Program-made: the position numbers and the translations under genes
The notes under the pieces: generated by a model
What the model saw: the letters and a program-made list of their open reading frames with translations, nothing else
Databases searched by the model: none
What the model was told of the DNA's origin: nothing
Shown here: in pieces, positions 7,901 to 27,052 of the stretch
Layout of the letters: every line of letters starts with the position of its first letter
Position numbering within the stretch: position 1 is the first letter of the stretch
From: a virus
DNA length: 29,401 bases
IMG/VR virus record: IMGVR_UViG_3300025759_000474
Location: 1-29,401 of that record
Reading direction: 5' to 3' (one strand)

Positions 7901-8001
7901 CCAGAATAAAAATTCAAGGCATCCAGCATGGACACCTTGTTTATGGTCTTGCTGTCAGCATCTGAATTTAAGACCCTAGGTATTCTTTTATCTACAGCCA
8001 T
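1939..8001 (-). CDS. Giant tail nozzle / stabilization-type protein with HYDIN-like and dockerin-like segments
   Basis: A protein of 2020 residues, the largest in the window. Its ATG (7999-8001) overlaps the TGA of the preceding gene as ATGA. The N-terminus (MAVDKRIPRVLN, then MLDALNFYSG and DNEGFQNG) and YFTDGANEPRKIN at residues 169-181 resemble the stabilization/nozzle proteins of crAss-like phages, functional counterparts of P22 gp10 or T7 gp12. The middle (about 200-1600) is beta-rich and probably repetitive. Residues about 1609-1716 look like an ASPM-SPD-2-HYDIN Ig-like domain (LTFGNVGVGQT, INFTTNDP, VEGSGV). After this come three EF-hand/dockerin-like loops: D1789-D1800 (DYFGDGLIDTSD), N1878-D1889 (NVNNVGSITITD) and a degenerate one ending at D1990. 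It probably forms the tail tube or nozzle below the connectors. The appended C-terminal domains are unusual. Identification is by motif memory, not by search. Confidence 0.87.
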   Translation of the reverse strand: MAVDKRIPRVLNSDADSKTINKVSMLDALNFYSGPDNEGFQNGVKSDSGEGVLKNIKGTQEVFIHEGEGLPSDARVIGSVEDVKTDITYFFVYAQNADDHGVWAYDKRDILNSFNGGAQQGPSIRLIYKSSQFNFPQNGFVKADIVYSNASKSTPPESGDEFDKDVIIYFTDGANEPRKINAYRAFFNSSGSQIHGVDPFAEADFITACPKVPLENISFYFDQDPERSVNNFSRSPGFQFAYQHIYLDGVESSISSYSDIAFPTVIIEQGAQTNIDDSLSNRCVLTIPGSGPEISKVRLLGRQGNTGSFMIIDELDASPESFSYNFYNDRILRGVSTDEVNKQFDSVPRKAKAQTTSSNRLMYANYTDGFDAVDVEAICTVNYKERPEDFIQYSVDYIPSKFGGGYSSYGQAQPSDNASFFLSFSELPDNLPAETNITFSISLQPQRNWHYYTAYGYQTIQRGPQPLGGNLGIHDGVNYQQSESLYGSADEYIGDTPVGAKIPELHVENEELSFTPQPAVEGKIWGGPVNDPTGVQVNQEVIWKRAFLPINSDNPTPPNVDQNQKAIFGTGAANPFIFQGQPITFTAQIKTTQDLTDARTKVCLAISEAICNPNVPPGYQFINECEGITLIEAQAEASYSFDLGLESGDLIDQHTIGQGESPLLHSDKICAVWGSDTSAISGVPTGYFIVNKGTPKFRLKRFFTEIQINPDEPNWGHMDSDYNEYLASIGVESPSHAYHFGISLAGLSDTEVHTCIHDTETDSPGTQAKPQWIVISADDIDYIHETGDLVGWFDSQNGYSFDDFAGFANKPSGVVHTQFAHGYQHQIGRLVFPAFEEDIISDQGPILSYLDLGFPNPYLWIVDSEYGDDFWPGAMSQKSLSDGAAGPGGGPAQGYATEGSLHPYDQLRMYAQGSVTVNPYYYLPDPSEVGSHRHKNTVFYGGSLTPTMASTIPNVEAGNFPTVLPFLKNKTTTEYVFTSSGIAEWLANPDFEYERPEGVQGAAIFNDYDNVYGFPSVDFKRNQSVVTPSVFNFLMTSSGELYGEGNESFKTKANHDFGIVYYDERGRHGFVNYLDSTYVKAYGERDAGEGYGAVSIDIKLLHDPPEWAHSYKIVYGGNSTVNDYIQYSVGGAFVGGDPDDQLVAESNKNIYVSLNYLQGHPVSYASSFGARNKEGGLNLYKFQEGDKLNVISYGPGSSRTYENHEFDVVGLVNLGDADNPLTSQELPEENQKGQFLVLKDNVNAVGFNHSAVAFEGTSNWEKNCIVEIRTPKKVLSPEEQIYYEASKSYRVVRDQYGNLSHEQVTVTLEKGDVWFRRVATNVKPLLNNEYLDIIPNDDGADPAPQPNFTTVYLEAESASDLFRSDSFSYKGRPNVVFDDEKETKRDATIIYSDASNPEGVKLNYSSFNASLAPFKDLSEQYGDIQYIVSYNDYIVVIQKEKLSIVPVNKNVISDASGSQQIIASLNVLGEVITYPGVSGCDDDPSSVYNSGDEIYFCNKSLSKVYRWSKSKGVEEISEKGMSSLIRASLKRAINVGQTRIVGGFDALKDEYLLSILVLDERDEPYGVTYPAQPGITPAFEGVDGGEDDTEGPSGEDGEGGTTGVQTEKLEVIPDLLTFGNVGVGQTQQQDVTLRATTNDPINVEAISFTNSRFSINPAQAFPIVLLPEFGFTSIPVTIFFNPDSVETFSGEINFTTNDPNQPTVTIDVEGSGVSVDEYTSSDAAVAFTEAYNDFYLTNISPEDMSAELAIDYLKDLKNDPNEGNHPTFNNLFGLLNEIDETLYAKFRFDYFGDGLIDTSDLLLFNTVFDTQYNTSGSIFVPQETTTAALPPPKVSVLPIFSSTQDAVDYLIAAGEMKVWEFYQYFSQSQVSDFRHLYNVNNVGSITITDFLQSLAVFGTEFLGSDSAFSSSYPGPTIENPEFSTSQVLGFIQQQHLSGADPMTVGQFYQLGQYLNPAMRLNGNAPSEYFSQGGATQEDGYNTTFQITAVDMLIFLSLLPSGVAGGTNDWTYNSNDPIFGL

Positions 8002-8843
8002 CAGTACTTAGGCGCTTGAATAAAGTTCTTACGAATTGTCTTCAGGGCTTCTTCCTTAGTGAAGTTGCTGAGTCTGGCGTTTGCTTTTCTTCTCTCATTG
8101 TAGTATTCAGCCCTGGCTCTTGCTTTTTCGTTTGCTGGGACAGAAGACTTACGTTCAATAATCTTGTAGTACATGTATGATCTCAACGCTTCTTCTGCGT
8201 ATACGTGAACCTCTGGATCAGAAGACCTAGCTTCGTCGGCGATATACTCCAACACAATCTCTGAGTAACCGCTGTTAGTTTCCACTTCGATTCTGTTTTG
8301 ATCGAGGTTAAGCCTGTACTCTCCAGCGAGGTGACCGCCACCCGTACCGTACAGCTTTCCCAGCCCGCCTTGATACAGATAGTTTTCAAATACGTAATAA
8401 TCTAAATTGTCGTCGCTTCCAGCGGCTGTATTGTTCGTAGACGTTTTATCGTCCACCCTATCCCTTACCTGGTTGGAGATAATGTTCATGGGGCCTTTAT
8501 TGAAGTCCGCTATCTGCTCTCCCGCTATAGTGCCCGTTTCGTACTTCCTGGAATAGTTAATGTGCTTGTTATTTCCAAAAACACGAACGATTCCATCCGA
8601 GTCAATAATTCCAATCTTAGAAAGATCAACAAAATCGTCTGGTAACGTAACGGTGTCGTTATCGTTGATGGACAGCTTCATAGACTTGATTTTCTTTCCC
8701 AAATCAAAACCTATCTCCCTAATGCCTCTGAGGGCAAAATTTCGAATAGCGGTGTCTGAAGCATTGCTTGCGTAGTCGTCACCGTCCAGCGTAACGATAA
8801 AATCGTTTATAATCTGACTGAGTTTTACTTTATTAAACGCCAT
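8001..8843 (-). CDS. Head-tail connector / ring-type protein candidate
   Basis: A protein of 280 residues. Its ATG (8841-8843) shares one base with the TAA of the preceding gene (TAATG), and its own TGA overlaps the start of the giant nozzle gene. The N-terminal region (KLSQIINDFIVTLDGDDYAS, then IRNFALRGIREIGFDLGKKI) is helical. A beta segment follows with TLPDDFVDLSKIGIIDSDG at about residues 65-83. The C-terminal third is helical and charged (EEALRSYMYYKIIERKS; AEYYNERRKANARLSNF). A helical domain with an inserted L-P-x-D-F-V-D beta element is the pattern of phage adaptor and tail-tubular-A-like proteins that bridge portal and nozzle. The position between another connector candidate and the nozzle gene supports this. 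The specific ring position in the tail is unknown. Confidence 0.85.
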   Translation of the reverse strand: MAFNKVKLSQIINDFIVTLDGDDYASNASDTAIRNFALRGIREIGFDLGKKIKSMKLSINDNDTVTLPDDFVDLSKIGIIDSDGIVRVFGNNKHINYSRKYETGTIAGEQIADFNKGPMNIISNQVRDRVDDKTSTNNTAAGSDDNLDYYVFENYLYQGGLGKLYGTGGGHLAGEYRLNLDQNRIEVETNSGYSEIVLEYIADEARSSDPEVHVYAEEALRSYMYYKIIERKSSVPANEKARARAEYYNERRKANARLSNFTKEEALKTIRKNFIQAPKY

Positions 8844-9616
8844 TATTCAGATGCTTCTTCTTGTGTTGAAAATACGGATACGCTTTGATCTCTGAGTCTG
8901 ATTCCAATGAGTTTAGCCATCTCCATGACTATTTCGTTTAAATAGTGAGGGGGAAGCATAAAGTTCCTAGAGCCAAGCGCATTAAACAGCTCCAGGCTTT
9001 CTCCAGTGTAGTTAACAACATTAAAGTCATAATAAGGAGGGTCTGCAGCTATGTTTCCGTCTTTGTCAAACGAAGTGGGTTTTGCATAGTACGTCAAGGA
9101 GTATGTCGAAATTTCAGGAAAAACTTCGATATCAACAGCAGAAACCAAAGCCACAGGAAATCCGCTCGTTGGATGCGATAGGTTGCTACCAATAATTCTA
9201 TCCAGTTTCTCTGGGTCGTAAACCAACTCACAATTAATCAGAGCTGGTTGCGAATCGTCGAAACCGCCCTCAACGGATTGCAGCGGATTTAAGTCCGATG
9301 TGTTTACGTGGAGCGATATAATTTTAGAAAAGTCAGAGGGTTTAGGAATCAAACCATTTAATGGTGCAGAAACCAATCTTCGGTGGAAGAAAGACAAGTC
9401 TTCCTGTTTTTGCTTCCTAATAGATTTGTCTCTTCCTGGGTCGAAGTTCTGCCTCATAAGGCGCTTCGCGTCCACAAGCTCTGTAAATAGCTCGTTATAG
9501 ATATTCATCTGAGCCAAAGCGGCAAAAGAGTTAAACACCTGGGGTGTAATGAACCCTTTCTGCTCTTTGTTTGCCAGGTCCTTTAAAGCTGTGTATACTT
9601 GCAGTACGCTAACCAT
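8843..9616 (-). CDS. Head-tail connector / neck protein candidate
   Basis: A protein of 257 residues starting at ATG 9614-9616, which lies four bases downstream of a TATATTTG promoter box, so the message is predicted to be leaderless. The N-terminus has a helical segment with KEQKGFITPQVFNSFAALAQ (about residues 17-36). From memory, the G-[FY]-I-T-P-x-x-F-N-x-[FL]-A-x-x-A-Q pattern is common in small neck or connector proteins of marine Bacteroidetes phages. A beta-rich middle and a C-terminal helix ending LIGIRLRDQSVSVFSTQEE follow. It is the first gene of the last transcription unit, directly upstream of a second connector candidate and the nozzle genes. A role at the portal-tail junction is inferred from position and the N-terminal pattern. 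Confidence 0.82.
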   Translation of the reverse strand: MVSVLQVYTALKDLANKEQKGFITPQVFNSFAALAQMNIYNELFTELVDAKRLMRQNFDPGRDKSIRKQKQEDLSFFHRRLVSAPLNGLIPKPSDFSKIISLHVNTSDLNPLQSVEGGFDDSQPALINCELVYDPEKLDRIIGSNLSHPTSGFPVALVSAVDIEVFPEISTYSLTYYAKPTSFDKDGNIAADPPYYDFNVVNYTGESLELFNALGSRNFMLPPHYLNEIVMEMAKLIGIRLRDQSVSVFSTQEEASE

Positions 9617-9620
9617 AGAG

Positions 9621-9628
9621 CAAATATA
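9621..9628 (-). promoter_or_regulatory. Bacteroidetes-type -7 element (TATATTTG) for the connector-nozzle operon
   Basis: On the minus strand TATATTTG is followed by CTCT and then the ATG at 9616. This matches the Bacteroidetes -7 consensus TAnnTTTG. With a four-base gap the transcription start is expected at or within a base or so of the start codon, so the message should be leaderless or nearly so. I see no TTG at -33; that position falls at the loop and stem edge of the upstream terminator hairpin. Confidence 0.72.
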
Positions 9629-9630
9629 CG

Positions 9631-9659
9631 AAAAAGAAATAGGCCGTTACTTTAGGCCT
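9631..9659 (-). terminator. Rho-independent terminator after the 542-residue gene
   Basis: On the minus strand AGGCC (9655-9659) pairs with GGCCT (9641-9645) across a nine-base loop, followed by ATTTCTTTTT. The TAA stop of the upstream gene (9652-9654) lies inside the hairpin loop. The stem is only five base pairs, so it may be leaky. Confidence 0.55.
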
Positions 9660-11280
9660 TGTAGACCTCAAACATCTGGGAAGCTATGTCCCTAGAAAGA
9701 AGGTCCCCCAAGTCTTTTTCTACAATCCCAAATCTAGCGATTCTCATTTGTTGATGTGGTCGTCCAGATTGACCTATAACCATGCCGAAGTTGTCTACAC
9801 TGAGCGTTCCATCAGTCTCTGAACCAGCTTCTTTTCTGGCTACAATTTCGCCAGTCCTGTCGTAAACAATAATTTCATTATCAGTCGTTCTTCTGATGAC
9901 AAAACAATGCAGGTTTTCTTCGGAAGACATGGGCGGCTCCAACACGTCTGTTTCGTTAAACTTTCCAGCTATCGCGTCAACGAGACTGACTGGAGTAACA
10001 GGAAACCTGTTTTCCTTAAATGGAAAGGTTGATTTTGATGCCAAAAACTTAGTAGAGGGGAACTTAGAAGAACCGCGATGGCTAATCTCAAATTCGTCTC
10101 CGAGAGAATCCTTAGGGAAGAAACCCTTGGCTTCAGTGTTTGAGGTAGAGTCTCCGTCGTATATTGGTTGAGTAAGCGAATTTGGAGGTATAACTACAGC
10201 GGCGTATATGGTGTAATCTCCAGTTATATCTACGTCTTGGAACTCAAGCTTCGCTGGCCTAAAGCCTCCAGATCCGTCTTCATTTTCCACAAAGGCATTA
10301 GCCAAGAAATAAAGTCCTCCTGATGAATGACCCGTCAGATTAAAGAAAATTATGTCGTTTGGCCTTAGTCCAGCACCCTCGTCATTGACTAAGACTTGAG
10401 TGGGCGAACCACCCGAATTAATAGATATATTGTCGAAAGTTGGTATCTGAATTAAATTCAGGGTGTCTGCAACGCTGTACATTACGCCTTGCCTAAGAAG
10501 CCGAACCGTGTTGTCGTCAGAGGTGTTTCCTGTGGTGCTTGCGGCTGTAATTTCTGCACCTGCCACTCCCGCAACAACATCTGTATTCTCTATGAGTTTT
10601 CCTGTCGCTAAGTCTATTGTCTTTTTTGAGCAAGCTTTATCTGGTCCAGCAACAATAGGGGAAACCACAGTGGAAGAAGGTGTGATAGAAGCGTTTTTTG
10701 AAGAGCCGCCAGTCGCTTTAGGGTGATTGCGCATTGACAGTATATCCCCTCTATTGCTTAGTTTTTCAAGCGCTGAATGAGAAAAGTCAATTATAGGGAG
10801 GTTGTCAGCCGTCAAGAAATCCAATCCATCCAGCAAGTTCAGATTGTTAGACTTTCTTATTGCTGAGTTTCCAGAAATGCTTCTGCTTACTGGTCGGCTT
10901 CTAATAAAGGTGTCGATTTGCGAATCGCTGTCAACCTCCTTAAACGTATTGTCTTCCCCAGTCGCATCAAACTTCATGACGTTTTTCGGGGTGTTTTTGT
11001 TCATAAAGTTGACTATAGACTCGATGAGGTCGTTTTCAACTCCCTTGGCACAACGTATGATCACCTTGGTCTTTTCAAACGACTCATTTTCTTTTAGGCT
11101 GTTCTCCTCGAAGACAGAAGTGTTATTAAAGAATATGTTAATACTACCCTCTGTCGCCACCATGTAAGACACACTAGAGGCGGGAATAGCCATAACACTT
11201 ATGCCTTTACCATTATCTGAAAACAATTGAGACTCTTTGCTAGGAGAATCCCTTTTAAACAGGAAGAATTTGTCGGTCAT
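9652..11280 (-). CDS. Virion protein with a C-terminal LamG/concanavalin-like domain
   Basis: A protein of 542 residues; its ATG (11278-11280) lies three bases after the TAG of the 105-residue gene. The first 120 or so residues (MTDKFFLFKR; KVIIRCAKGVENDLIESI) share the pattern of the whole 105-residue neighbour, suggesting a common N-terminal fold. A polar linker (about 125-250) is rich in Ser, Thr and Asn. Residues about 345-542 look like a LamG/ConA-like jelly roll: GDYTIYAAVVIPPNS, then HCFVIRRTTDNEIIVYDRTG, NFGMVIGQSG and the closing MRIARFGIVEKDLG with a final helix. That ending is typical of lectin-like domains in phage fibres. The likely role is a surface or tail appendage that contacts glycans. 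The ConA-like call is by pattern only. Confidence 0.83.
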   Translation of the reverse strand: MTDKFFLFKRDSPSKESQLFSDNGKGISVMAIPASSVSYMVATEGSINIFFNNTSVFEENSLKENESFEKTKVIIRCAKGVENDLIESIVNFMNKNTPKNVMKFDATGEDNTFKEVDSDSQIDTFIRSRPVSRSISGNSAIRKSNNLNLLDGLDFLTADNLPIIDFSHSALEKLSNRGDILSMRNHPKATGGSSKNASITPSSTVVSPIVAGPDKACSKKTIDLATGKLIENTDVVAGVAGAEITAASTTGNTSDDNTVRLLRQGVMYSVADTLNLIQIPTFDNISINSGGSPTQVLVNDEGAGLRPNDIIFFNLTGHSSGGLYFLANAFVENEDGSGGFRPAKLEFQDVDITGDYTIYAAVVIPPNSLTQPIYDGDSTSNTEAKGFFPKDSLGDEFEISHRGSSKFPSTKFLASKSTFPFKENRFPVTPVSLVDAIAGKFNETDVLEPPMSSEENLHCFVIRRTTDNEIIVYDRTGEIVARKEAGSETDGTLSVDNFGMVIGQSGRPHQQMRIARFGIVEKDLGDLLSRDIASQMFEVYKA

Positions 11281-11283
11281 GTG

Positions 11284-11601
11284 CTATGAGTCTAACGTTA
11301 TAACGCAAGCGGTAATGTCAGGGTCTAAATAAATAGAATCCACGTCATCCGCGATTACGATCAAGCCGTCTTCGCTGAATAGAATCGAATCGGCTATATT
11401 CGCCATAACTTTTTGCTCCTGATCAGAAGATATGGTTAACGTAACGGTGTCCAAAGATGCTGCCTGACCAGTTCCTAGGGAGCCAGGAGAGAACTTCAGC
11501 AAAAGAGTAGCATCAGCAGCACAAGTCATGGATATGAGTCTGTCTACTGGATACGTAGCCGCCTTGTCGGCACCCTCTACAAATTGTAAAAATTTAGACA
11601 T
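11284..11601 (-). CDS. Small virion protein, related to the N-terminus of its downstream neighbour
   Basis: A protein of 105 residues, starting at ATG 11599-11601, four bases after a TATATTTG box. It reads MSKFLQFVEGADKAATYPVD, then beta-rich segments with LLLKFSPGSLG, DTVTLTISSDQEQKVMANIA and an acidic C-terminus (DDVDSIYLDPDITACVITL). Order and spacing (K-F-x-x-F, a central L-x-x-x-F strand, then V-x-[IL]-x-x-x-x-x-x-E-x-x-x-x-x-x-I) match residues 1-100 of the 542-residue protein encoded directly downstream, so I infer duplication of one small domain. Function unknown; a structural or decoration role fits the location between head and connector genes. It ends in TAG. Confidence 0.8.
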   Translation of the reverse strand: MSKFLQFVEGADKAATYPVDRLISMTCAADATLLLKFSPGSLGTGQAASLDTVTLTISSDQEQKVMANIADSILFSEDGLIVIADDVDSIYLDPDITACVITLDS

Positions 11602-11605
11602 ACAG

Positions 11606-11613
11606 CAAATATA
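11606..11613 (-). promoter_or_regulatory. Bacteroidetes-type -7 element (TATATTTG) for the 105/542-residue genes
   Basis: The minus-strand order is TATATTTG, CTGT, ATG: the same four-base spacing as at 9621-9628, predicting a leaderless transcript. No TTG is present at -33; the TTCG loop of the preceding terminator lies 18 bases upstream of the box. Confidence 0.72.
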
Positions 11614-11619
11614 CGAAAG

Positions 11620-11641
11620 AAAAAAGCCACCCGAAGGTGGC
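11620..11641 (-). terminator. Rho-independent terminator with a UUCG loop after the 273-residue gene
   Basis: On the minus strand GCCACC pairs with GGTGGC around TTCG, followed directly by six T residues (A residues at 11620-11625 on the plus strand). It begins seven bases after the upstream stop codon. A six-pair stem, a UUCG tetraloop and a U tract make a convincing intrinsic terminator. Confidence 0.85.
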
Positions 11642-11648
11642 CTTTTAT

Positions 11649-12470
11649 TTATGCTAGGCGTTCAAGCCTCTCTTCTAGAGAGGACAAGACGGAAGCGCCT
11701 TTCTCTGTTAAGCAGAACCGTACTGCTACATCCATAGGATCTTGGCCTACTGGTACCGATACAATCAACTTGTTTGAGTCAAACCAGTATACCCCATCTT
11801 TCTTTACGTTGATGAGCTGCCAGTCTTTTGCTTGGACCAAGGTAGCACGGGCTGTAACCTGTGGAGACTCAAACGCTTTCATGAACTCTGTTGGTTTGCG
11901 CTTGGCAATCTGGAGCAGGTTGAATCGAATATCCGAAGAAGAGGTGTTGATGTCCACGTTGTAGTACAACGCTACAGCGAGTAGGTCCTCAATGCTGGTG
12001 TCTCGAATCTTAGAGATAGCGTCGTTAAGAGCGAACTCTTTCTCCAGCTCTACAGCAGCGTCTTTAGTCTTGTTCACTTCCTTGAACATCGAACCACCGT
12101 TAGCTGCGTTTCCTGGATGCATCTCCATGAAGTCTCGCAGGTTTGGCTTATCCTGAGAAACAAACAGCTTCTTGTCTCGGAAGATAATGGCTTGACGTAC
12201 CGCACGATCAGACTGTTCGTCAGACCAGATAGACGGCTCGTTAGGGCAGTAGCGAATTTCACGAACGGTGTCTTTCTCTTTGTCGTAGACAGTGATGCCT
12301 TTCTGAGGTAACAAGAAGGCTACGCCTCCGCCCTTAATTACTTCGTACTCTTTGTTGGTCTGCACCTTCTCTTCTCGCTTGAAGGTGGTCTTCTTTTTAG
12401 CTGGTGCTGGTACAGCAGCAGGTTGAGCTTTTGGTGGGCGCCCAGGAGCCTTTTTAGTTTGTGTAGTCAT
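11649..12470 (-). CDS. Conserved phage protein of unknown function with a basic, AT-hook-like N-terminus
   Basis: A protein of 273 residues. The first 45 residues are Pro/Lys/Ala-rich and basic (TKKAPGRPPKAQPAAVPAP), with a GRPPK core that resembles an AT-hook. The rest is mixed alpha/beta: YEVIKGGGVAFLLPQKGITV, then LRDFMEMHPGNAANGGSMF followed by an E/K-rich helix, and a C-terminal part with ATLVQAKDWQLINVKK, VYWFDSNKLIVSVPVGQDP. From memory, the pattern LRDFxxxxPxNxxNGGxxFxE followed by acidic helices occurs in proteins next to capsid genes in marine and crAss-like phages. It has its own promoter and terminator, so its dose is controlled separately from the flanking operons. Function is not established. 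Confidence 0.84.
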   Translation of the reverse strand: MTTQTKKAPGRPPKAQPAAVPAPAKKKTTFKREEKVQTNKEYEVIKGGGVAFLLPQKGITVYDKEKDTVREIRYCPNEPSIWSDEQSDRAVRQAIIFRDKKLFVSQDKPNLRDFMEMHPGNAANGGSMFKEVNKTKDAAVELEKEFALNDAISKIRDTSIEDLLAVALYYNVDINTSSSDIRFNLLQIAKRKPTEFMKAFESPQVTARATLVQAKDWQLINVKKDGVYWFDSNKLIVSVPVGQDPMDVAVRFCLTEKGASVLSSLEERLERLA

Positions 12471-12490
12471 ATTGAATTAAATTAATGATG

Positions 12491-12498
12491 CAAATATA
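12491..12498 (-). promoter_or_regulatory. Bacteroidetes-type -7 element (TATATTTG) for the 273-residue gene
   Basis: TATATTTG on the minus strand lies 20 bases upstream of ATG 12470, giving a short A/T-rich leader. A TTTG motif 20 bases further upstream (plus-strand CAAA at 12519-12522) fits a -33 element and is also the loop of the upstream terminator hairpin. This is the best two-part promoter in the window. Confidence 0.8.
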
Positions 12499-12500
12499 CT

Positions 12501-12530
12501 AAAAAAGAAAAAGGCCCCCAAAGGGGCCTT
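12501..12530 (-). terminator. Strong rho-independent terminator ending the capsid operon
   Basis: On the minus strand AAGGCCCC (12523-12530) pairs perfectly with GGGGCCTT (12511-12518) around a TTTG loop, and the tail is T-rich (TTTTTCTTTTTT, counting the last stem bases). It lies 20 bases after the stop of the 114-residue gene. Eight base pairs, mostly G/C. Confidence 0.9.
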
Positions 12531-12550
12531 TCTCATAAGCAGAAATAAGA

Positions 12551-12895
12551 TTACTTCTCAATAACCAAGTATTGTAAGTCTCCAGCGCAAGTACCTCCAG
12601 CTGTAAGCGTAAAGCCTGTAGTGGTTACTGCAAGGGTGTCCACATCAACGTTAGCTCCAGCGCCACCAGAAATAAGCACCAATGGAGCTTTTTCTTTAGC
12701 AGCGGCAAAAGTAACAACGGCAGTGTCGCCATCAGCCCAGGTTGCGGCAAAGGTCAAGATCCCCGCAAGGTCTGTTCCGTCGAGCGTACATGTTCCGTTA
12801 CCAGCTGTTGTAGCTTCTACTGATGCAGCAGCAGCTCCGTCTTGAATTGCTGTCGTAATGAGCTTGGTAGCTCTAACTCTATCTAAGTGTCCCAT
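12551..12895 (-). CDS. Small head-associated structural protein candidate
   Basis: A protein of 114 residues whose ATG (12893-12895) shares a base with the upstream TAA (TAATG). After a short helical N-terminus (MGHLDRVRATKLITTAIQDG) the sequence is a run of Ala/Thr/Gly-rich beta strands: NGTCTLDGTDLAGILTFA, DTAVVTFAAAKEKAPLVLIS, VTTTGFTLTAGGTCAG. This composition, the size and the position two genes after the capsid gene suit a capsid decoration or head-fibre protein. I recognise no defined family. It is the last gene of the head operon; a strong terminator follows. Confidence 0.8.
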   Translation of the reverse strand: MGHLDRVRATKLITTAIQDGAAAASVEATTAGNGTCTLDGTDLAGILTFAATWADGDTAVVTFAAAKEKAPLVLISGGAGANVDVDTLAVTTTGFTLTAGGTCAGDLQYLVIEK

Positions 12896-13362
12896 TAAAC
12901 CAAGTGTGTAAAGATGAAATTAACCTCAAGCTCGTTGTCACCAGTGACTGTCTGGTTTGCACAGATAGTAGTGAAGTAAAGCTTTCTAGCCTCGTCTGTG
13001 TATCCAGTAGCGGCAGCGCCAGAGGTACCGTCTTGCGTACTATCAGCAGCCCATCCAGCCGCACCGCTACCACCTTTCAGGTAGTAAACAGTATTTGCAG
13101 CGATGGCGGTACCCTCGTCGAGGAAACCGTCAACGTTAGTTCCGAGCTGGCTTCCGCTAGAAGCGGTTCCAATTTCGTAACCGATATCTCCAGCAGCACC
13201 CAATGTAACACCTCCAATAAATCTAACAATAACGTCAGAAAGGATGGTTCCAGCAGGCTGATCTACCTCAGCAACAACCTCAGCGTTTTGAACGAAAGCG
13301 TCTTTGATAACAACTCTCTTTGAAGCTGTAACAGCTCCAGATGTATACTTATATGTAGCCAT
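12895..13362 (-). CDS. Small head-associated structural protein candidate
   Basis: A protein of 155 residues that follows the major capsid gene after a 59-base gap containing a stable hairpin. It begins MATYKYTSGAVTASKRVVIK and is beta-rich and low in charge, with EVDQPAGTILSDVIVRFIGG, a Gly/Ala-rich middle (GSGAAGWAADSTQDGTSGAA) and a final KLYFTTICANQ, ELEVNFIFTHLV. Many tailed phages encode a decoration or cement protein directly after the capsid protein, and the beta-rich make-up fits, but no family signature is visible. It overlaps the next gene by one base (TAATG), suggesting coupled translation. Confidence 0.82.
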   Translation of the reverse strand: MATYKYTSGAVTASKRVVIKDAFVQNAEVVAEVDQPAGTILSDVIVRFIGGVTLGAAGDIGYEIGTASSGSQLGTNVDGFLDEGTAIAANTVYYLKGGSGAAGWAADSTQDGTSGAAATGYTDEARKLYFTTICANQTVTGDNELEVNFIFTHLV

Positions 13363-13385
13363 AATGATTAAGTTTTAGTGATTTA

Positions 13386-13407
13386 GGGAGAGGCCGAAGC
13401 CCCTCCC
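13386..13407 (-). other. Stable UUCG hairpin between capsid and decoration genes
   Basis: On the minus strand GGGAGGGGC (13399-13407) faces GCCTCTCCC (13386-13394) around TTCG, giving nine positions with one A/C mismatch. The downstream tail (TAAATCACTAAAAC) is not a T tract, and no TAnnTTTG box follows, so it is more likely an attenuator or a message-protecting 3' structure for the capsid transcript than a full terminator. Confidence 0.65.
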
Positions 13408-13421
13408 CTCATCAGTTAATA

Positions 13422-14870
13422 TTATCCCTTAATCAATACGTGCTGATTTGCAGCGCGAACGCAAAGGGCGATTTCTGATCTGTAGTGGAATACAGCCTGG
13501 TCTGTACCAGCGTCGCCGTTGTTGTTGTGACCCAACACGCCGCCACCAGTTACCCAGTGCTCCATTTCACGAGAGTATCCGTTTGCTTCTTTGTAGTGCA
13601 TAGACAAAGCAGGTACAGAAGCACCGCTTCGTGCGTCAGCAACAGTACGCAAAGGAACCATAGCGCCTTGAATGAAGTTTGCATCAGCAGCACCCAACAT
13701 AGTTGGATCGTTCAGCAATCTCCAGTCGTGCTTGTGGAAAGTGTAGCCACCGCGAGTAAAGCTCTTGAATCCGAGCTGTACCGCCATGTCTGGGCTGTTC
13801 TGGAATGCACCGAACTGACCTGGCAAACCAGCAGTAACACCAGTAGCGATACCAGCTGCGAGCATGTCGTCGATAGCCAAGTCCTGCTTTCTGTTTACGT
13901 ACATAGCGTACTCAGAAGGAGCACCCTGCTTGTCCAACTCCATGATGATATCATCGAACTCAGCGAAGCTGTCCATTGGGTTAGAAGAAGCGCCAGAAAC
14001 GTTGATACCTCTGTCCTCGATAGCAGAGAAGTAACCTTCAGAACCAGCGAAGTTCTTGCCGTCAACGGTGTAGGCTGTTCCTACTTTCTCGCCGAACAAC
14101 ATCATCAACTCACGCTTGTCTTCGAAACGCTTACGAGCTTCAGCCTCACCGTACATGAACCATCTGTAGTCTCCGCCACCCAAGTTTACGTAACCAATGT
14201 TAGTAGCTTGAGAGCCGTTTACTTCGTAACGATCCTTTACGATCATGTAAGGGTTCGCGTAACGAACCATACCTGGATCAGTGAAAGCAGTTGGCTGATC
14301 AGTTCCCTGCGCGTACAGGTTACCAATCTTCACGAGCTTGCCAGTAGCGTCGCTCAAGTCGCCAGCAGTAAAGTCGGCGCCATCCAAACGCTTAATAACA
14401 ACGTTCACTTCCGAGCCAGTGCCGAAACCGCCAGATTGAACAACCACTCTTACGCCTGTCTCTGGATCCATCAGAACGTCGTTCTGCTGAACGTTAGCTT
14501 TGATTTCAGAGTCAGTCAATGTTGCTGTTGCAGTTGCAACAGCAGACAAGTCCTGACTTGTTGCCAACGCTCTGTGACGACGACCTTCTTCCCACCATTC
14601 TACCTGGTCAGAAGAACCACCGTTGTTTACAGCGCCAGTCAACTTCAAGAAGCCTGTCAAGCCTTGATCGCCATAAGTTTTAACCAAGTCAGGCATGATG
14701 TCCTGCTTAGTTGCTTTAATCAATTCGTCAATAGTAGTGTACGAATCGGGAGTAATCTTAAACCCACGGTTTAAATTACCTTGTTGAATAGAGAAATTGT
14801 CATTACCCGCAACCGTAGTGTTATCGAGGTTTGGGATATTGGTTCCTCTAGTAGTACCAATAGTAGCCAT
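13422..14870 (-). CDS. Major capsid protein (HK97-fold type)
   Basis: A protein of 482 residues, in the usual size range for a capsid subunit and placed directly after an acidic scaffold-like gene. The N-terminus is flexible (MATIGTTRGTNIPNLDNTTV), then helical (TIDELIKATKQDIMPDLV). The motif SDQVEWWEEGRRHRA lies at about residues 87-101; a Q-V-E-W-x-E-x-G-R strand is characteristic of capsid proteins of crAss-like and related phages. Later segments include MVRYANPYMIVKDRYEVNG, YRWFMYGEAEARKRFEDK (long spine-like helix), YAMYVNRKQDLAIDDML and a C-terminal HYRSEIALCVRAANQHVLI. The start follows an A/T-rich leader (12-base gap). The HK97 fold is inferred, not visible. It has no promoter of its own that I can see and is read from the operon starting at 17298. 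Confidence 0.92.
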   Translation of the reverse strand: MATIGTTRGTNIPNLDNTTVAGNDNFSIQQGNLNRGFKITPDSYTTIDELIKATKQDIMPDLVKTYGDQGLTGFLKLTGAVNNGGSSDQVEWWEEGRRHRALATSQDLSAVATATATLTDSEIKANVQQNDVLMDPETGVRVVVQSGGFGTGSEVNVVIKRLDGADFTAGDLSDATGKLVKIGNLYAQGTDQPTAFTDPGMVRYANPYMIVKDRYEVNGSQATNIGYVNLGGGDYRWFMYGEAEARKRFEDKRELMMLFGEKVGTAYTVDGKNFAGSEGYFSAIEDRGINVSGASSNPMDSFAEFDDIIMELDKQGAPSEYAMYVNRKQDLAIDDMLAAGIATGVTAGLPGQFGAFQNSPDMAVQLGFKSFTRGGYTFHKHDWRLLNDPTMLGAADANFIQGAMVPLRTVADARSGASVPALSMHYKEANGYSREMEHWVTGGGVLGHNNNGDAGTDQAVFHYRSEIALCVRAANQHVLIKG

Positions 14871-14882
14871 AATTATCTAATG

Positions 14883-15974
14883 TTAAATGTTAAAAGTAAG
14901 ACCCCCGTTGCCACCGTTTAGAATTTGTTTTACTTGGTCGGCAAGAGGGTTTGTTTGTTGGTTTTGATTCCCCATCGGAGCGGCCTGAGTAGAGACATTA
15001 GACGCTGTGTCCACAAGTGTTCTCTGTCCGTCACCCAATCCTCTGGTGTAAGCAGACTTAACAATTCTGTCAATGTTGTCAATGACAGCCATGTGAGACG
15101 AAAGCAGGTCGTAATCCCAGCTACCATCCTCCCGTACATAGGGATCAAAGAACTCGTCGAGACGAGCTTGTTTGTCCATGAGTTGATCTTTGTAGTTTTC
15201 ATCCAAACCGAACTCGAAGAGGTTGCCATCGCCAAGGTCAAACTCTAGACCCTCCAGCGTTTCAACTTCATCTACCATGTTTGAAATCCACTGCTCGTCA
15301 ATCACGGACTGTGGTGCTTCGCTTTCGTACTCAGGAGCGGCATACCCTTGTCGGATATCCTCAATGCTCTTCCGAGCCTTGTCTCCGTCCATCTTCATTT
15401 GAAGCTTAGCAAGGTTGACCTCTTCCTCCGAATAGAGGTCGGCATCAACCTTGTATTTGCTGTTAACAAGCAAGTTGAGCTCATCGTAAGAAAGGTTAGG
15501 GTACTCATTCGACATTTGAATGCGAATGGCGGTCATGTCGTCCATACCTTCTGGATTCAATGACTGGAACCTAAACCAATCCTCTGGTGCGCGGCCCGTT
15601 TCCTCTACGAACCGTGCGATGGCTTCGACTCTTTCGTCAACAGCGTTAGTTTCTTCTTCTGCGTACAAATCATCGAGAGAAGTGATGTTTTCACCTGTCA
15701 TCTCGCTGAGGTACTCAAATACAGCGGACTGCAATTCTTCGTCGCTGTACTGTTCCTCGCCAGCAGCTTCTTGCTGAGGCTGTTCTTGATATTGCTCTTG
15801 AACAGGTTCTTGGCCCTGATCCTGAGCTTCGTATTGTTGCTCCTGGACAGGCTCTTGAGCTTGCTCTTGAACTTGTTCAACTGGTTGTTCTGTAGGCGCT
15901 TCTACAGAAGCAGTAAGGTCCTCAGCGCTGCTGAAGACCTCAAAACCTGCAATGGTGTCTTTGTTTTCTTCCAT
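14883..15974 (-). CDS. Acidic scaffold-like / prohead protein
   Basis: A protein of 363 residues directly upstream of the major capsid gene. It is very acidic. Residues about 33-70 are a low-complexity Gln/Glu/Pro repeat (QEPVQEQ occurs twice), followed by charged helices (YSDEELQSAVFEYLSEMTGE; ARFVEETGRAPEDWFRFQSL; YSEEEVNLAKLQMKMDGDKA) and a Gln/Asn-rich C-terminus (GNQNQQTNPLADQVKQIL). Acidic, helical, low-complexity proteins immediately before the capsid gene are typically assembly scaffolds in tailed phages, and crAss-like phages encode a similar acidic protein there. No protease signature is visible. Scaffold is the most likely role, but an internal head protein is possible. Confidence 0.85.
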   Translation of the reverse strand: MEENKDTIAGFEVFSSAEDLTASVEAPTEQPVEQVQEQAQEPVQEQQYEAQDQGQEPVQEQYQEQPQQEAAGEEQYSDEELQSAVFEYLSEMTGENITSLDDLYAEEETNAVDERVEAIARFVEETGRAPEDWFRFQSLNPEGMDDMTAIRIQMSNEYPNLSYDELNLLVNSKYKVDADLYSEEEVNLAKLQMKMDGDKARKSIEDIRQGYAAPEYESEAPQSVIDEQWISNMVDEVETLEGLEFDLGDGNLFEFGLDENYKDQLMDKQARLDEFFDPYVREDGSWDYDLLSSHMAVIDNIDRIVKSAYTRGLGDGQRTLVDTASNVSTQAAPMGNQNQQTNPLADQVKQILNGGNGGLTFNI

Positions 15975-15995
15975 TATATTTAATTAATTGTGTTT

Positions 15996-16373
15996 TTAGT
16001 ATCTCCAAACCTGACCCCTCCAAGCTTGACCAGTGTCAATCTTAATAGACGTGAGGTGTGTGTTGATGATATCTCCAGCGGTCATGTTTATTGTCACGTA
16101 CTGAGATCCATCACCTTCATAAAAGCCAGCAGCGGCTGGGTTGTCAGCCGCAACAAAAGCCTTTCCAGTAGCTGGGTTGATAAACGTAGTGTTTGTGTTG
16201 TCGACGCCATCAGCGACAGCAGCCAAATACTGAAATACCCCGCCCGCTTTTATTTTTACTGGCCCAGTAGTGGTGCAGTAAATAGCATCAAAGTGCTTGT
16301 TTGCACCCGCGATGAGTTCGTCATCAACCGCATCCAAAACGTAAACTTGTTGCTTTGCTCTATAGTTAATCAT
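15996..16373 (-). CDS. Small head-region structural protein candidate
   Basis: A protein of 125 residues starting MINYRAKQQVYVLDAVDDEL. I chose ATG 16371-16373, ten bases after the upstream stop; an in-frame ATG at 16439 would overlap the previous gene by 56 bases. The body is beta-rich (HFDAIYCTTTGPVKIKAGGV, FQYLAAVADGVDNTNTTFIN) and ends GQAWRGQVWRY. Its size and low charge resemble the two upstream proteins, but sequence similarity to them is not obvious. It lies between these and the scaffold gene, so a minor head or fibre role is likely. Family unknown. Confidence 0.78.
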   Translation of the reverse strand: MINYRAKQQVYVLDAVDDELIAGANKHFDAIYCTTTGPVKIKAGGVFQYLAAVADGVDNTNTTFINPATGKAFVAADNPAAAGFYEGDGSQYVTINMTAGDIINTHLTSIKIDTGQAWRGQVWRY

Positions 16374-16383
16374 GTCTTGTCTA

Positions 16384-16833
16384 TTAGCTGCCTCCGTATG
16401 GGGCGTCTGAGTTATCGTTACCGAACACGCCGTACTCAATCAATGAGTCAACCTTAGTGGCGTATACCTCATACTTCTTATCCGCTGCAACGGGAATAAA
16501 AGCAAACTCGCCACCCCCAACCTTGGCTACAAGAGGAGAGACGTCCTGAGAACCAGTGACGCCCGTTGTGGAGAAACCTGAGTCGGTATCGTTATGAATG
16601 TAGATGTAGTTCTCAAGCTCAGCCTCCATATTTTTAATGTAGAGGTAAGCCCTGTCAGAACACTGATTAGCCACGTAAACAGCAAGGTCGTTACTGTCTG
16701 CGGCTGTACCCTTTACTTTAGCCCTGATCAAGCTGCCAGAGTCACAGGTAAGATTAGCCACAGTAGTAAGAGCCAACGCGCTTGTAAGCACGTCAGCACT
16801 GTTCAGGCTGAGTGATGCGCGTACAATTGCCAT
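16384..16833 (-). CDS. Small structural protein, paralogue of the preceding gene
   Basis: A protein of 149 residues whose ATG (16831-16833) overlaps the TAA of the 145-residue gene by one base. The N-terminus RASLSLNSADVLTSALALTT matches ATLTLSSADLTGDALALSTT of the upstream protein nearly position for position. Further parallels are YLYIKNMEAE against KVYIKNLSTT and GGEFAFIPVAADKKYEVYA against AGDFAFFPYEGFNDILVTT. The pair is therefore a tandem duplication that has diverged. Low charge and beta-rich sequence suggest a virion surface protein. No named family recognised. Confidence 0.82.
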   Translation of the reverse strand: MAIVRASLSLNSADVLTSALALTTVANLTCDSGSLIRAKVKGTAADSNDLAVYVANQCSDRAYLYIKNMEAELENYIYIHNDTDSGFSTTGVTGSQDVSPLVAKVGGGEFAFIPVAADKKYEVYATKVDSLIEYGVFGNDNSDAPYGGS

Positions 16834-17270
16834 TAGTCTTCGTAGATAACCATGAACTCAACAGACATGTTGTTATCGCTAGTCGTAACAAGAATGTCAT
16901 TGAAGCCCTCGTAAGGGAAGAAAGCGAAGTCGCCAGCGTAAATCTTTCCTAGCTCGATATCGTCACCTGATGTAGCATCGTCGTTAGAAATGACAATAGA
17001 AACGTGCTCAGCAGCCGTGGTGGAAAGGTTCTTAATGTAAACCTTATGTGCCTTGTTGGCAGCAGCTGCCGTAGCTGGGTTGTAGTCAGTTCCGTCAATC
17101 AAGAGGTACTTGGTTACAGCAGTCCCGAACAGCTTTCTAGAAACGCCAGTTGTTTGATCCATTCCCGTAGCCGTACCAGCCTTGGTGAGTGTAGCTGTAG
17201 TTGACAGCGCAAGAGCGTCACCAGTCAGGTCAGCGCTCGAAAGTGTAAGTGTTGCAGTGGTTGTAGCCAT
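16833..17270 (-). CDS. Small structural protein, first gene of the capsid operon
   Basis: A protein of 145 residues, 20 bases downstream of a TATATTTG box. It reads MATTTATLTLSSADLTGDAL, then a Thr/Ala-rich middle, HKVYIKNLSTTAAEHVSIVI, GKIYAGDFAFFPYEGFNDIL and a final VEFMVIYED. It is paralogous to the next gene. The K-V-Y-I-K-N-L ... I-Y-A-G-[DE]-F-A-F-x-P order is, from memory, seen in small virion proteins of marine phages near capsid genes. It may be a head decoration or fibre subunit. Function is not established. Confidence 0.82.
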   Translation of the reverse strand: MATTTATLTLSSADLTGDALALSTTATLTKAGTATGMDQTTGVSRKLFGTAVTKYLLIDGTDYNPATAAAANKAHKVYIKNLSTTAAEHVSIVISNDDATSGDDIELGKIYAGDFAFFPYEGFNDILVTTSDNNMSVEFMVIYED

Positions 17271-17290
17271 TATTGTTAGTTATATGAATG

Positions 17291-17298
17291 CAAATATA
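17291..17298 (-). promoter_or_regulatory. Bacteroidetes-type -7 element (TATATTTG) for the scaffold-capsid operon
   Basis: TATATTTG on the minus strand, 20 bases upstream of ATG 17270, the same spacing as at 12491. The next bases are CAT in both cases. I see no clear TTG about 20 bases upstream and no terminator hairpin in this gap, so this unit may also receive read-through from the small basic gene cluster. Confidence 0.72.
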
Positions 17299-17309
17299 GC
17301 AATAATTTA

Positions 17310-17546
17310 TTACCTGAATCTCGCTGTCTTTTTCTTGATCTTGTCGGGCTGAGCAACGAACTGTTTACCTTTTCTATTGCCAGCTGCTTTGGCGCGGTTA
17401 GTCGCGGCTTTTTCACTTGATGATAGTGATCGCCACGCTGCGTCAGGCAGGTACCGTCTTTTACCTTCTGATTTCTTCCCACTAGAAGTTCTCCACTTCT
17501 GTCTGGTCCAGTCCTTAAGGCTCTGTTGTGATTTCTTTAATCGCAT
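17310..17546 (-). CDS. Small basic phage protein (78 residues)
   Basis: A 78-residue protein starting MRLKKSQQSLKDWTRQKWRT. I chose ATG 17544-17546 because it overlaps the upstream TGA by one base (TGATG); a longer frame from 17615 would lie largely inside the previous gene. About one third of residues are Lys or Arg, with only a few acidic ones. The order S-L-x-x-W-T-x-Q-x-W-R-T-x-S-G-K, then RRYLPDAAWRSLSSSEKAAT, then GKQFVAQPDKIKKKTARFR is a conserved small-protein pattern that I recall from other marine phage genomes. No catalytic motif is apparent. DNA or RNA binding is plausible from charge but unproven. Confidence 0.8.
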   Translation of the reverse strand: MRLKKSQQSLKDWTRQKWRTSSGKKSEGKRRYLPDAAWRSLSSSEKAATNRAKAAGNRKGKQFVAQPDKIKKKTARFR

Positions 17547-17812
17547 CAGTTCTTGTAGCCTCCCCCAGCTTTCTTGTAGCGCGACGCCAGAAGCTGTGCT
17601 TTTCTGGCTGACCATTGGCCTGGGCGGCCACCCTTAGACCCAGCCTTAATCTGGTTAAAGATGCGCTTACGCATTCCTGGCTTCGTGTAGTTTCCAGCTT
17701 CGTTCACACGGGATACCTTGCCGCCTTTATTAAATACACCTCTTCCTTTAAGGATGTCGGCCTTCGTAATCTTGCCGTCTTTATTGAGGTCTGGGAATTT
17801 CTTCGTCTTCAT
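17546..17812 (-). CDS. Small basic phage protein with an EF-hand-like loop (88 residues)
   Basis: An 88-residue basic protein; its ATG (17810-17812) overlaps the upstream TGA as ATGA. The N-terminus MKTKKFPDLNKDGKITKADI contains DLNKDGKITKAD, a complete EF-hand-type loop (D-x-N-x-D-G-x-I-x-x-x-D), at residues 8-19. It continues LKGRGVFNKGGKV, NYTKPGMRKRIFNQIKAGSK and PGQWSARKAQLLASRYKKAG, the last being the most conserved-looking part from memory of other marine phages. A single calcium-type loop on a strongly basic small protein is odd. Its role is unknown; packaging, nucleoid-like or virion-internal functions are all possible. Confidence 0.82.
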   Translation of the reverse strand: MKTKKFPDLNKDGKITKADILKGRGVFNKGGKVSRVNEAGNYTKPGMRKRIFNQIKAGSKGGRPGQWSARKAQLLASRYKKAGGGYKN

Positions 17813-17994
17813 GAGTGACTAACGAGTTTGAACTTAGCTTCTTTAACAGCGCCAGGATGTGGTTTGTAATCTCCTTTCATAAGGAAGTATCTACCCCGAT
17901 CTACCATCCAGTGAAAACCAGAAGGTGCAGGAACAGACTTCGTAGCAGAGCTAACTTTGAGCTTACCGCCCTTGTTGTACTTGACAGCATTCAT
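17809..17994 (-). CDS. Small basic phage protein (61 residues)
   Basis: A 61-residue protein starting MNAVKYNKGGKLKVSSATKS. ATG 17992-17994 shares one base with the upstream TAA (TAATG); a GTG two codons earlier is a weaker choice. The middle reads VPAPSGFHWMVDRGRYFLMK and the end is HPGAVKEAKFKLVSH. It is basic, with a hydrophobic patch (F-H-W-M-V ... Y-F-L-M). It overlaps the next gene by four bases. No family recognised; it belongs to the same compact cluster of tiny basic genes. Confidence 0.72.
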   Translation of the reverse strand: MNAVKYNKGGKLKVSSATKSVPAPSGFHWMVDRGRYFLMKGDYKPHPGAVKEAKFKLVSHS

Positions 17995-18281
17995 TACCAC
18001 TTAACCTTGTTGGCCCAATACGCTGCGCTGGTCTTGCCCTTGGCTATGTTCTTTCTGTGTCTGGCCTTGAATGACTTACGCTTCGCTTTCATGCGAGCGC
18101 TCTCACCAGCCTTGGGCTTACCAGCCGTGCTAGCCCCTCTCTCTCCGAAGCGGATAATCTTTACTTTACCGCCGTCTCGTACCGCTACGATATGCGACTT
18201 CTTCCCGCTTGGGGATCGCTTAGGTTTATTGAGCCCTGAGAGTCCAAACCGCTTGAGTTTCTTCTTTACATCTTCAGCCAT
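17994..18281 (-). CDS. Small, very basic phage protein (95 residues)
   Basis: A 95-residue protein starting MAEDVKKKLKRFGLSG at ATG 18279-18281, four bases after a TATCTTTG promoter box, which supports this start over a GTG at 18362 that would place a terminator hairpin inside the gene. Roughly 30 residues are Lys or Arg. The C-terminal half, AGKPKAGESARMKAKRKSFK followed by ARHRKNIAKGKTSAAYWANK and VKW, matches a conserved pattern (S-F-x-A-R-H-x-K-N-I-x-K-G-x-x-S-A-A-Y-W-A-x-K-x-K-W) that I recall from other phage genomes. The preceding SGKKSHIVAVRDGGKVKIIR looks like a small beta hairpin. Nucleic-acid binding is plausible; there is no direct evidence. Confidence 0.82.
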   Translation of the reverse strand: MAEDVKKKLKRFGLSGLNKPKRSPSGKKSHIVAVRDGGKVKIIRFGERGASTAGKPKAGESARMKAKRKSFKARHRKNIAKGKTSAAYWANKVKW

Positions 18282-18285
18282 AAGG

Positions 18286-18293
18286 CAAAGATA
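18286..18293 (-). promoter_or_regulatory. Bacteroidetes-type -7 element (TATCTTTG) for the small basic gene cluster
   Basis: TATCTTTG on the minus strand fits TAnnTTTG and is followed by CCTT and then ATG 18281, again a four-base gap that predicts a leaderless message. A TTG 18 bases upstream of the box lies where the loop of the terminator hairpin meets its 3' arm, and could act as the -33 element. Confidence 0.7.
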
Positions 18294-18301
18294 ATAAAAA
18301 C

Positions 18302-18324
18302 AAAAAAGGCCCAAGAAGGGCCTT
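18302..18324 (-). terminator. Rho-independent terminator after the adhesion module
   Basis: On the minus strand AAGGCCC (18318-18324) pairs with GGGCCTT (18306-18312) around TTCTT, followed by a T tract (A run at 18302-18307 on the plus strand). It lies about 80 bases after the stop at 18404. The 79 bases between that stop and the hairpin hold only an A/T palindrome (AGATATATATCT, 18329-18340) and no gene that I can support. Confidence 0.87.
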
Positions 18325-18403
18325 CTTAAGATATATATCTCACCTGTATCCTTAATTCCCACTCCTTCAAAAATATTCCAAAAAAATAAACCGCCCCACC
18401 CAT

Positions 18404-18658: not shown

Positions 18659-19482
18659 TATAATCCGTGTTTTGTTTTACTTGCGTTGTAGTTTTGTAGA
18701 ACCTGTGCAGCAGTCAGTTCTGCGTCGTACATAAGGCATTCGCCTATTAAGCCGTCGTAATAGTAAGTGAACTGGTCATCTGTTCCCTGACCAAAAGTTG
18801 CACCAGTATAGTTTACTACTGAACTGCCACTTCCTGTATTGATGATTAACGAAGTGGTCTGCGCCACCCCATTGATGTATATGGTTCCGCCTGACTCTGT
18901 CCTGCTTCCATCATGAGTAAAAGTAACCTGCCCTGGGTTCGCCGTCAAGTTAGAAGCCCTCCAGTATTGAGTGTGACTGTTATTGTGACGTGCCGCAGCC
19001 GTCATCACGTAAGTAGAAGTTGAAGTGTTGTAACTTATATACAAACCAATGAATGTGTACTCGCCGCCATATTCAAACGCACCGAACAGACACTGAGTGC
19101 CGTTCTTAGAATCGTGGTCGTAGAATGCGGACCACGTGTAAGCATCAGACAGGTCTGCAGGAACCATAGTGCTAGGCACAGAATTAAACGTGCCTGTGTA
19201 GTCGTTCGTTCCATCAAATGCAACCCAAACACTACCGCCCGTTGGTTGTCCTACGCCATTGTTATATGTTAAGTTGTAAGCCCCTGAACCTTGGTCAACA
19301 AGTTGTGTAGATGTTGTCCCACCAGACAAAGAAGCATCATAGTGGTGAATAAGATTTGAAGTGACTATACCAGACCCAGACGGTGCATCTTGCCCAGCGA
19401 CTTTTGCAATGTCTGCCTTTGCTACATCGCTTATCTTGGACAAATCAGCCCAAGCAGTTCCCGTTACTTTATCAATAGCCAT
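18658..19482 (-). CDS. LamG/concanavalin-like tail adhesin
   Basis: A protein of 274 residues. The first 35 residues (GTAWADLSKISDVAKADIAK) match a short amphipathic motif that, from memory, often precedes lectin-like domains in phage tail proteins and may anchor it to the fibre. The rest is a LamG-like jelly roll: NLIHHYDASLSGG, VDQGSGAYNLTYNNGVG, VWVAFDGTNDYTGTF, DAYTWSAFYDHDSKNGTQCL, a central aromatic core, GTIYINGVAQTTSLI and the closing GLIGECLMYDAELTAAQVLQ. This is the standard order of a three-dimensional concanavalin-type domain ending in an E-x-x-x-Y-x-x-x-L-[ST]-x-x-[EQ] helix. It probably binds host surface glycans. Receptor specificity cannot be read from the sequence. Confidence 0.88.
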   Translation of the reverse strand: MAIDKVTGTAWADLSKISDVAKADIAKVAGQDAPSGSGIVTSNLIHHYDASLSGGTTSTQLVDQGSGAYNLTYNNGVGQPTGGSVWVAFDGTNDYTGTFNSVPSTMVPADLSDAYTWSAFYDHDSKNGTQCLFGAFEYGGEYTFIGLYISYNTSTSTYVMTAAARHNNSHTQYWRASNLTANPGQVTFTHDGSRTESGGTIYINGVAQTTSLIINTGSGSSVVNYTGATFGQGTDDQFTYYYDGLIGECLMYDAELTAAQVLQNYNASKTKHGL

Positions 19483-27015: not shown

Positions 27016-27044
27016 GTGTCTGATGGAGCTCTACGCATATTCTG

Positions 27045-27052
27045 CAAATATA
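27045..27052 (-). promoter_or_regulatory. Bacteroidetes-type -7 element (TATATTTG) for the portal-adhesion operon
   Basis: TATATTTG on the minus strand lies 29 bases upstream of ATG 27015, within the 48-base gap after the terminase stop. The gap shows no hairpin, so the portal operon probably receives both read-through from the terminase gene and initiation here. I see no convincing TTG near -33. Confidence 0.65.

Follow-up and report, generated by a model that had tools for sequence, protein, structure and literature searches.

Three genes in the viral DNA analysed here, a stretch of 29,401 nucleotides which we call the window, are each preceded on the minus strand by a TAnnTTTG box standing exactly four bases ahead of the ATG (Table 1), an arrangement reported in the initial annotation and confirmed here. 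We hold, at a probability of roughly 0.8, that these boxes are -7 promoters of the sigma-ABfr type from which transcription starts (+1) at the A of the ATG, and that they give rise to leaderless messages. The four-base geometry, its conservation, the constraint on its length and its presence in many gene families were observed directly.

The genes of the window form a late, structural module from a tailed phage, with family matches to a terminase (phrog_6681) and a portal protein (phrog_6547); tail proteins of collagen-like type and virion structural proteins are encoded as well. Two proteins with collagen-like GPTGPTG repeats are encoded at 19482-21035 and 22666-24075, the latter matching tail fibre families. 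A search of GenBank phages with the window DNA returned no close match; the nearest isolates are flavobacterial (Elemovirus, Pervagoviridae, Pachyviridae and Maribacter phage Panino), joined by the metagenome-derived ctfjg026, with portal identities of 25-32% and best terminase matches of about 41-47% at the protein level. The window's phage group probably infects flavobacteria, and the nearest hosts in culture are Flavobacterium sp. BAL314, Cellulophaga baltica and Maribacter. All genes in the window share one direction of transcription, and many junctions between 1939 and 24566 show TAATG stop-start overlaps (for example at 8843, 12895, 16833, 18658, 19482, 21035 and 22666), which suggests translational coupling within units. 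The gene behind the first box, 8843-9616, is linked through such overlaps to 8001-8843 and 1939-8001, and gene 9652-11280 comes 3 bp after gene 11284-11601.

Table 1. Promoter boxes, first genes and terminators discussed in the text, in window coordinates.
Feature	Positions	Strand	Details
-7 box TATATTTG	9621..9628	-	spacer CTCT (9617-9620), ATG 9614-9616
Virion structural protein, 257 aa, phrog_14543	8843..9616	-	first gene of predicted leaderless unit
Weak hairpin with T-tract, immediately upstream of the 9621 box	9641..9659	-	-7.6 kcal/mol, z -1.9
-7 box TATATTTG	11606..11613	-	spacer CTGT (11602-11605), ATG 11599-11601
105-aa protein without assigned function	11284..11601	-	first gene of predicted leaderless unit
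Terminator hairpin, T-tract running into promoter	11621..11646	-	-16 kcal/mol, z -5.2
-7 box TATCTTTG	18286..18293	-	spacer CCTT (18282-18285), ATG 18279-18281
95-aa basic protein, phrog_7595, without assigned function	17994..18281	-	first gene of predicted leaderless unit
Terminator hairpin adjoining promoter	18303..18327	-	-15.5 kcal/mol, z -3.7
TATATTTG box, leadered unit	12491..12498	-	20 nt to ATG of 11649-12470
Terminator behind which the 12491 box stands	12507-12534		upstream of leadered unit 11649-12470
TATATTTG box, leadered unit	17291..17298	-	20 nt to ATG of 16833-17270
TATATTTG box, leadered portal unit	27045..27052	-	29 nt to ATG of 24568-27015

The window contains 28 TAnnTTTG matches, an ordinary number next to the 21.5 +/- 4.6 of shuffled sequences. 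Their placement is unusual: three of the 26 gene starts carry a box at one exact offset, with a Poisson probability of about 7e-8, a figure which uses the clade's box density and an offset picked after the data were seen. All three boxes also fit the -7 element in the form TAHHTTTG.

The meaning of a four-base gap can be read from mapped promoters. In F. johnsoniae, 4 or 5 nt separate the -7 element (T-12 to G-5) from the start site (PMC6847099), and the sigma-A box of F. psychrophilum lies at -12 to -5 (PMC9723704). With the box at -12 to -5, a gap of four bases therefore puts +1 on the A of the ATG, and it does so at all three starts, the position of +1 being borrowed from the F. johnsoniae geometry. 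The earlier proposal that the first transcribed base is this A, or lies near it, thus gains computational support by analogy with the geometry mapped in these two species, and the leaderless interpretation is very probably correct to within a base. The 5-nt spacing also occurs in F. johnsoniae, and therefore transcription might in part begin a base further on, leaving the A out of the message. A -33 TTTG element was not evident, 6 of 43 leaderless promoters and 8 of 38 leadered ones having a TTG 17-23 bp upstream, and none is evident in F. johnsoniae either (PMC6847099). On these two grounds, we class the promoters as -7-type in the F. johnsoniae sense and not as the -33/-7 type of B. fragilis.

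The usual initiator preference is for a pyrimidine at -1 and an A at +1. Only 3 of 31 distinct four-base spacers have a purine at -1, whereas leadered promoters have one at the equivalent position in 19 of 35 cases (p = 2e-4). The A content of positions -4 to -1 is 12% in the leaderless set versus 42% at other genes (p = 1e-15), a deficit which is partly a product of promoter context; the absence of the A-rich initiation stretch from these starts would be expected if that stretch is not transcribed. Weaker 5' structure in leaderless genes was also sought, and their first 45 nt were no less structured than those of other genes (p = 0.45).

The initial annotation had asked whether a distance of four bases is over-represented in related phages, and the answer is positive. 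In the window and 16 related contigs (17 contigs in all, 868 kb, 919 called genes, taken as simple longest-ATG frames), we counted the gene starts that have a TAHHTTTG box no more than 60 nt away. The distance was four at 66 of 183 box-linked starts, against about 0.26 expected per offset, a share of 36% which is approximate, as the box-linked set includes some chance boxes. The peak is sharp and isolated: a distance of three was found once, five twice and six 12 times (nearly all in one family), and there were none from 9 to 12. Leadered starts peak near 18-21 and 26-30 nt. The exact pattern TAHHTTTGNNNNATG gave 68 matches in 16 contigs, versus 12 for the reversed pattern. The contigs are related and the counts not independent, an effect of kinship which is reduced, and not removed, by counting protein families (19 of 47 have a four-base start, and any other distance occurs in at most five) and by the cassette described below.

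Spacing is also conserved among relatives within the three largest four-base families (17 of 18, 12 of 13 and 10 of 10 members), the exceptions jumping to 16 nt; a 16-nt gap occurs in divergent members of two four-base families (G075 and G069). Leadered distances, by comparison, drift between relatives, from mostly 26-30 nt in the portal family to 20-23 in another and 18-20 in a third. The family responsible for most distances of six reads TAAATTTG TAGATC ATG in 10 of its 15 members.

Among relatives of gene 8843-9616, TATATTTG lies exactly four bases before the ATG in 19 of 20 (52-70% protein identity), the spacers differing widely in sequence though their length stays at four; in the one exception, a relative at 31% identity, the gap is 16 nt. 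The four bases are likewise kept before all homologues of 17994-18281 with a flavobacterial-type start (L021-L024 and L027-L030), and most other phrog_7595 homologues, in phages that are not close, are without the box. Relatives of gene 11284-11601 are few. Loss of the boxes from close relatives, named beforehand as the outcome that would count against the idea, was not seen for the first two of these starts; for the third, G069 and G072 keep four bases, G075 has six, and L101, in a different setting, has no box. IMG/VR contains at least 599 stretches matching the 95-aa phrog_7595 protein, whose homologues, 35-71% identical, occur in phages that infect Roseobacter, cyanobacteria, Pelagibacter and Puniceispirillum; this small gene thus spans very different hosts. 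Ahead of several leaderless starts (L128, L145, L154, L156 and L171) there is a conserved stretch, roughly GGCGCAAAAACTGTCTTCAT, which may either belong to the coding region of the preceding gene or serve as a promoter element.

Upstream of each of the three boxes lies an intrinsic terminator, a G+C-rich hairpin followed by a run of T, strong in two cases and weak at 9641-9659, where the relatives keep the T-tract and most are missing the hairpin. Fusion to a terminator was considered as a hallmark of leaderless starts and dropped, as the hairpin counts across the clade (12 of 43 leaderless versus 5 of 38 leadered promoters) are not convincing. A T-tract of seven or more T just upstream of the box was found at 26 of 43 leaderless versus 4 of 38 leadered promoters (p = 3e-6), in agreement with the AT-rich motif at -18 in F. 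johnsoniae (PMC6847099). In the window, the cassette AAAGGCCACC-TTCG-GGTGGC-TTTTTT-n-TTTCG-TATATTTG sits 4 nt before the gene for the 105-aa protein; most relatives have a near-identical cassette at this same distance of 4 nt from an unrelated gene about 430-470 codons long. The distance is therefore kept though the gene behind the cassette differs.

Other boxes in the window belong to units with leaders. The gaps of 20, 20 and 29 bases first given for the boxes at 12491, 17291 and 27045 are correct, and the suggestion that this phage mixes leaderless-geometry and leadered starts describes a real mixture, both kinds of box distance being present in the window and its relatives. Ahead of the portal gene lies an eight-codon ORF (27013-27038, MRRAPSDT) which begins at a distance of 6 nt from the box and ends in a stop codon overlapping the portal ATG. 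A leaderless mini-ORF before the portal was rejected as a general feature, being present in L148, L149 and L160 and lost in L112, L156, L164 and L179. Near the left end of the window, at 898-905, a box stands six bases before a gene reading off that end (TAAATTTG TAGACC ATG); it is conserved as TAAATTTGTAGATCATG in several relatives and shares bases with the stop codon of the frame upstream. We dropped it as a candidate leaderless start because the box contains this stop and its distance in relatives varies from 4 to 7.

Beyond the clade, in a wider sample of viral contigs, chosen only by the presence of TTTTTNNTATATTTG upstream of an ORF, the distance was four in 11 of 80 cases, five in 5, six in 4, and 8-12 in none. 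In 60 Flavobacteriaceae chromosomes (201 Mb), the pattern TATATTTG-Nx-ATG occurred 438 times with N4, 293 with N5, 314 with N8 and 475 with N20, against 216-268 for reversed-pattern controls. The four-base geometry thus exists at low density in hosts, and the phage clade uses it far more: TAHHTTTGNNNNATG reaches 81 per Mb in the phage contigs, versus 2.2 per Mb in the chromosomes for the narrower form TATATTTG-N4-ATG, of which the 29.4-kb window holds two. The related isolates phi38:1 (Pervagoviridae), phi13:2 and Gundel_1 (Pachyviridae), Elemovirus, Panino and ctfjg026 have a homologous portal or terminase and TAnnTTTG boxes, but these six differ in being mostly leadered, and 40-50 kb of their sequence contains only 0-2 boxes with the 4-nt distance.

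In the explanation we propose, the boxes would be read by the host RNA polymerase with the Bacteroidota primary sigma factor (sigma-ABfr type), the four-base gap would make the A of the ATG the first base transcribed, and ribosomes would initiate on the 5'-terminal AUG. Selection would fix the box-to-ATG length at four and keep the pyrimidine at -1, and therefore A would be the preferred start base. Later genes of the units, close or overlapping, would probably be translated by coupling. Where the strong terminator of the upstream unit runs into the promoter, as in two of the three cases, a compact terminator-promoter-start-codon cassette would result. Use of the host polymerase is, like the transcription start and leaderless translation, something we infer; no match over the cut-off to a phage sigma factor, a single-subunit polymerase or a phage ribosomal protein bS21 was found in the 17 contigs, a search in which the single-subunit polymerase had no positive control and by which a phage polymerase or sigma factor is weakly excluded. 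We would add, tentatively and with some doubt, that starts could be quantised into those with no leader and a T-tract and those with leaders of about 14-30 nt, lengths of 9-12 being avoided, and that the two could use different ribosome routes, switched between host states.

The alternative nearest to our own, in which the start site lies one or two bases off the A, so that messages have a leader of 1-2 nt or form a mixed population, appears unlikely. Start sites in F. johnsoniae do scatter between 4 and 5 nt from the box, a six-base family exists, and distances of five and six also occur in unrelated viral contigs; yet the peak lies exactly at four, with a single start at three and two at five among 183, the pyrimidine at -1 favours A as the start, and the six-base box overlaps an upstream-frame stop in a family that ranges from 4 to 7. 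More improbable still is that the working messages acquire leaders by read-through from promoters further upstream, the ATG-adjacent box being minor. With all window genes running one way and terminators imperfect (that at 9641-9659 is weak), such read-through can be envisaged, but it would have to pass two strong terminators directly upstream, it sits poorly with the absence of the A-rich initiation region that other genes possess, and it would leave the strict conservation of length unexplained.

Equal spacing might also arise by chance, or by inheritance of a promoter-gene block whose distance is under no functional constraint, given that the window offers three cases only, that the offset was chosen post hoc and that the contigs are related. 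This reading, to which we attach very little weight, is already contradicted by the census, with 66 starts against 0.26 expected and 19 unrelated protein families; moreover, the distance is kept with a different gene behind the cassette, spacers vary in sequence at constant length, and the same peak appears in unrelated viral contigs, together with an excess in the 60 chromosomes. Gene starts are often uncertain in phyla that do not use Shine-Dalgarno sites, and if start codons were mis-assigned, translation would begin downstream and a leader would exist after all. This is scarcely credible, as N-termini are conserved from the first residue: homologues of the 8843-9616 protein align starting at residue 1, its next Met being residue 37, and the 95-aa protein aligns to phrog_7595 from residue 2 through its end, the conserved protein starting at the ATG despite an in-frame GTG upstream (18362). 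Two of the three ATGs are, in addition, the first start following a stop.

The leaderless reading has precedents in Bacteroidota. In F. psychrophilum, 5.5% of mRNAs are leaderless (PMC9723704); 5' UTRs under 10 nt account for about 3.7% in B. thetaiotaomicron (PMC7366714), and leaders of 10 nt or less for 13% in F. johnsoniae (PMC6847099). The leaderless mRNAs of Flavobacterium and Bacteroides have the same -7 box and distance as the phage's, whereas the phage clade differs from these hosts in that about one third of its box-linked starts have zero-leader geometry, many of them at structural genes. Phage messages beginning with AUG are known from lambda cI and from PY54 cI and cro, having been mapped by RACE in PY54 (PMC4488713), while those described here are predicted. 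The lambda and PY54 cases are single regulatory genes of temperate phages whose hosts use Shine-Dalgarno sites, unlike the present one, which involves many genes, structural units included, in a phage of a non-Shine-Dalgarno phylum. TA-led genes (Zheng et al. 2011, PMC3160421), whose -10 box precedes the start codon by about 10-12 bp, follow the same logic of a box abutting the start.

What the clade displays is a strong, lineage-specific use of known leaderless mRNA from Bacteroidota -7 promoters and not a new mechanism. Dozens of viral gene starts, in many unrelated genes, are built with leaderless geometry. Leaderless messages have been described in flavobacteria, where they are not common, and within Bacteroidota, whose ordinary messages already lack Shine-Dalgarno sites, they make up a minor class. 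The clade offers a natural set for testing how the ribosomes of this phylum initiate on a 5'-terminal AUG, and whether infecting phages benefit from such starts. The fixed four-base rule also ties the transcription start to the translation start, and is thereby an aid to annotation for the phages of this phylum.
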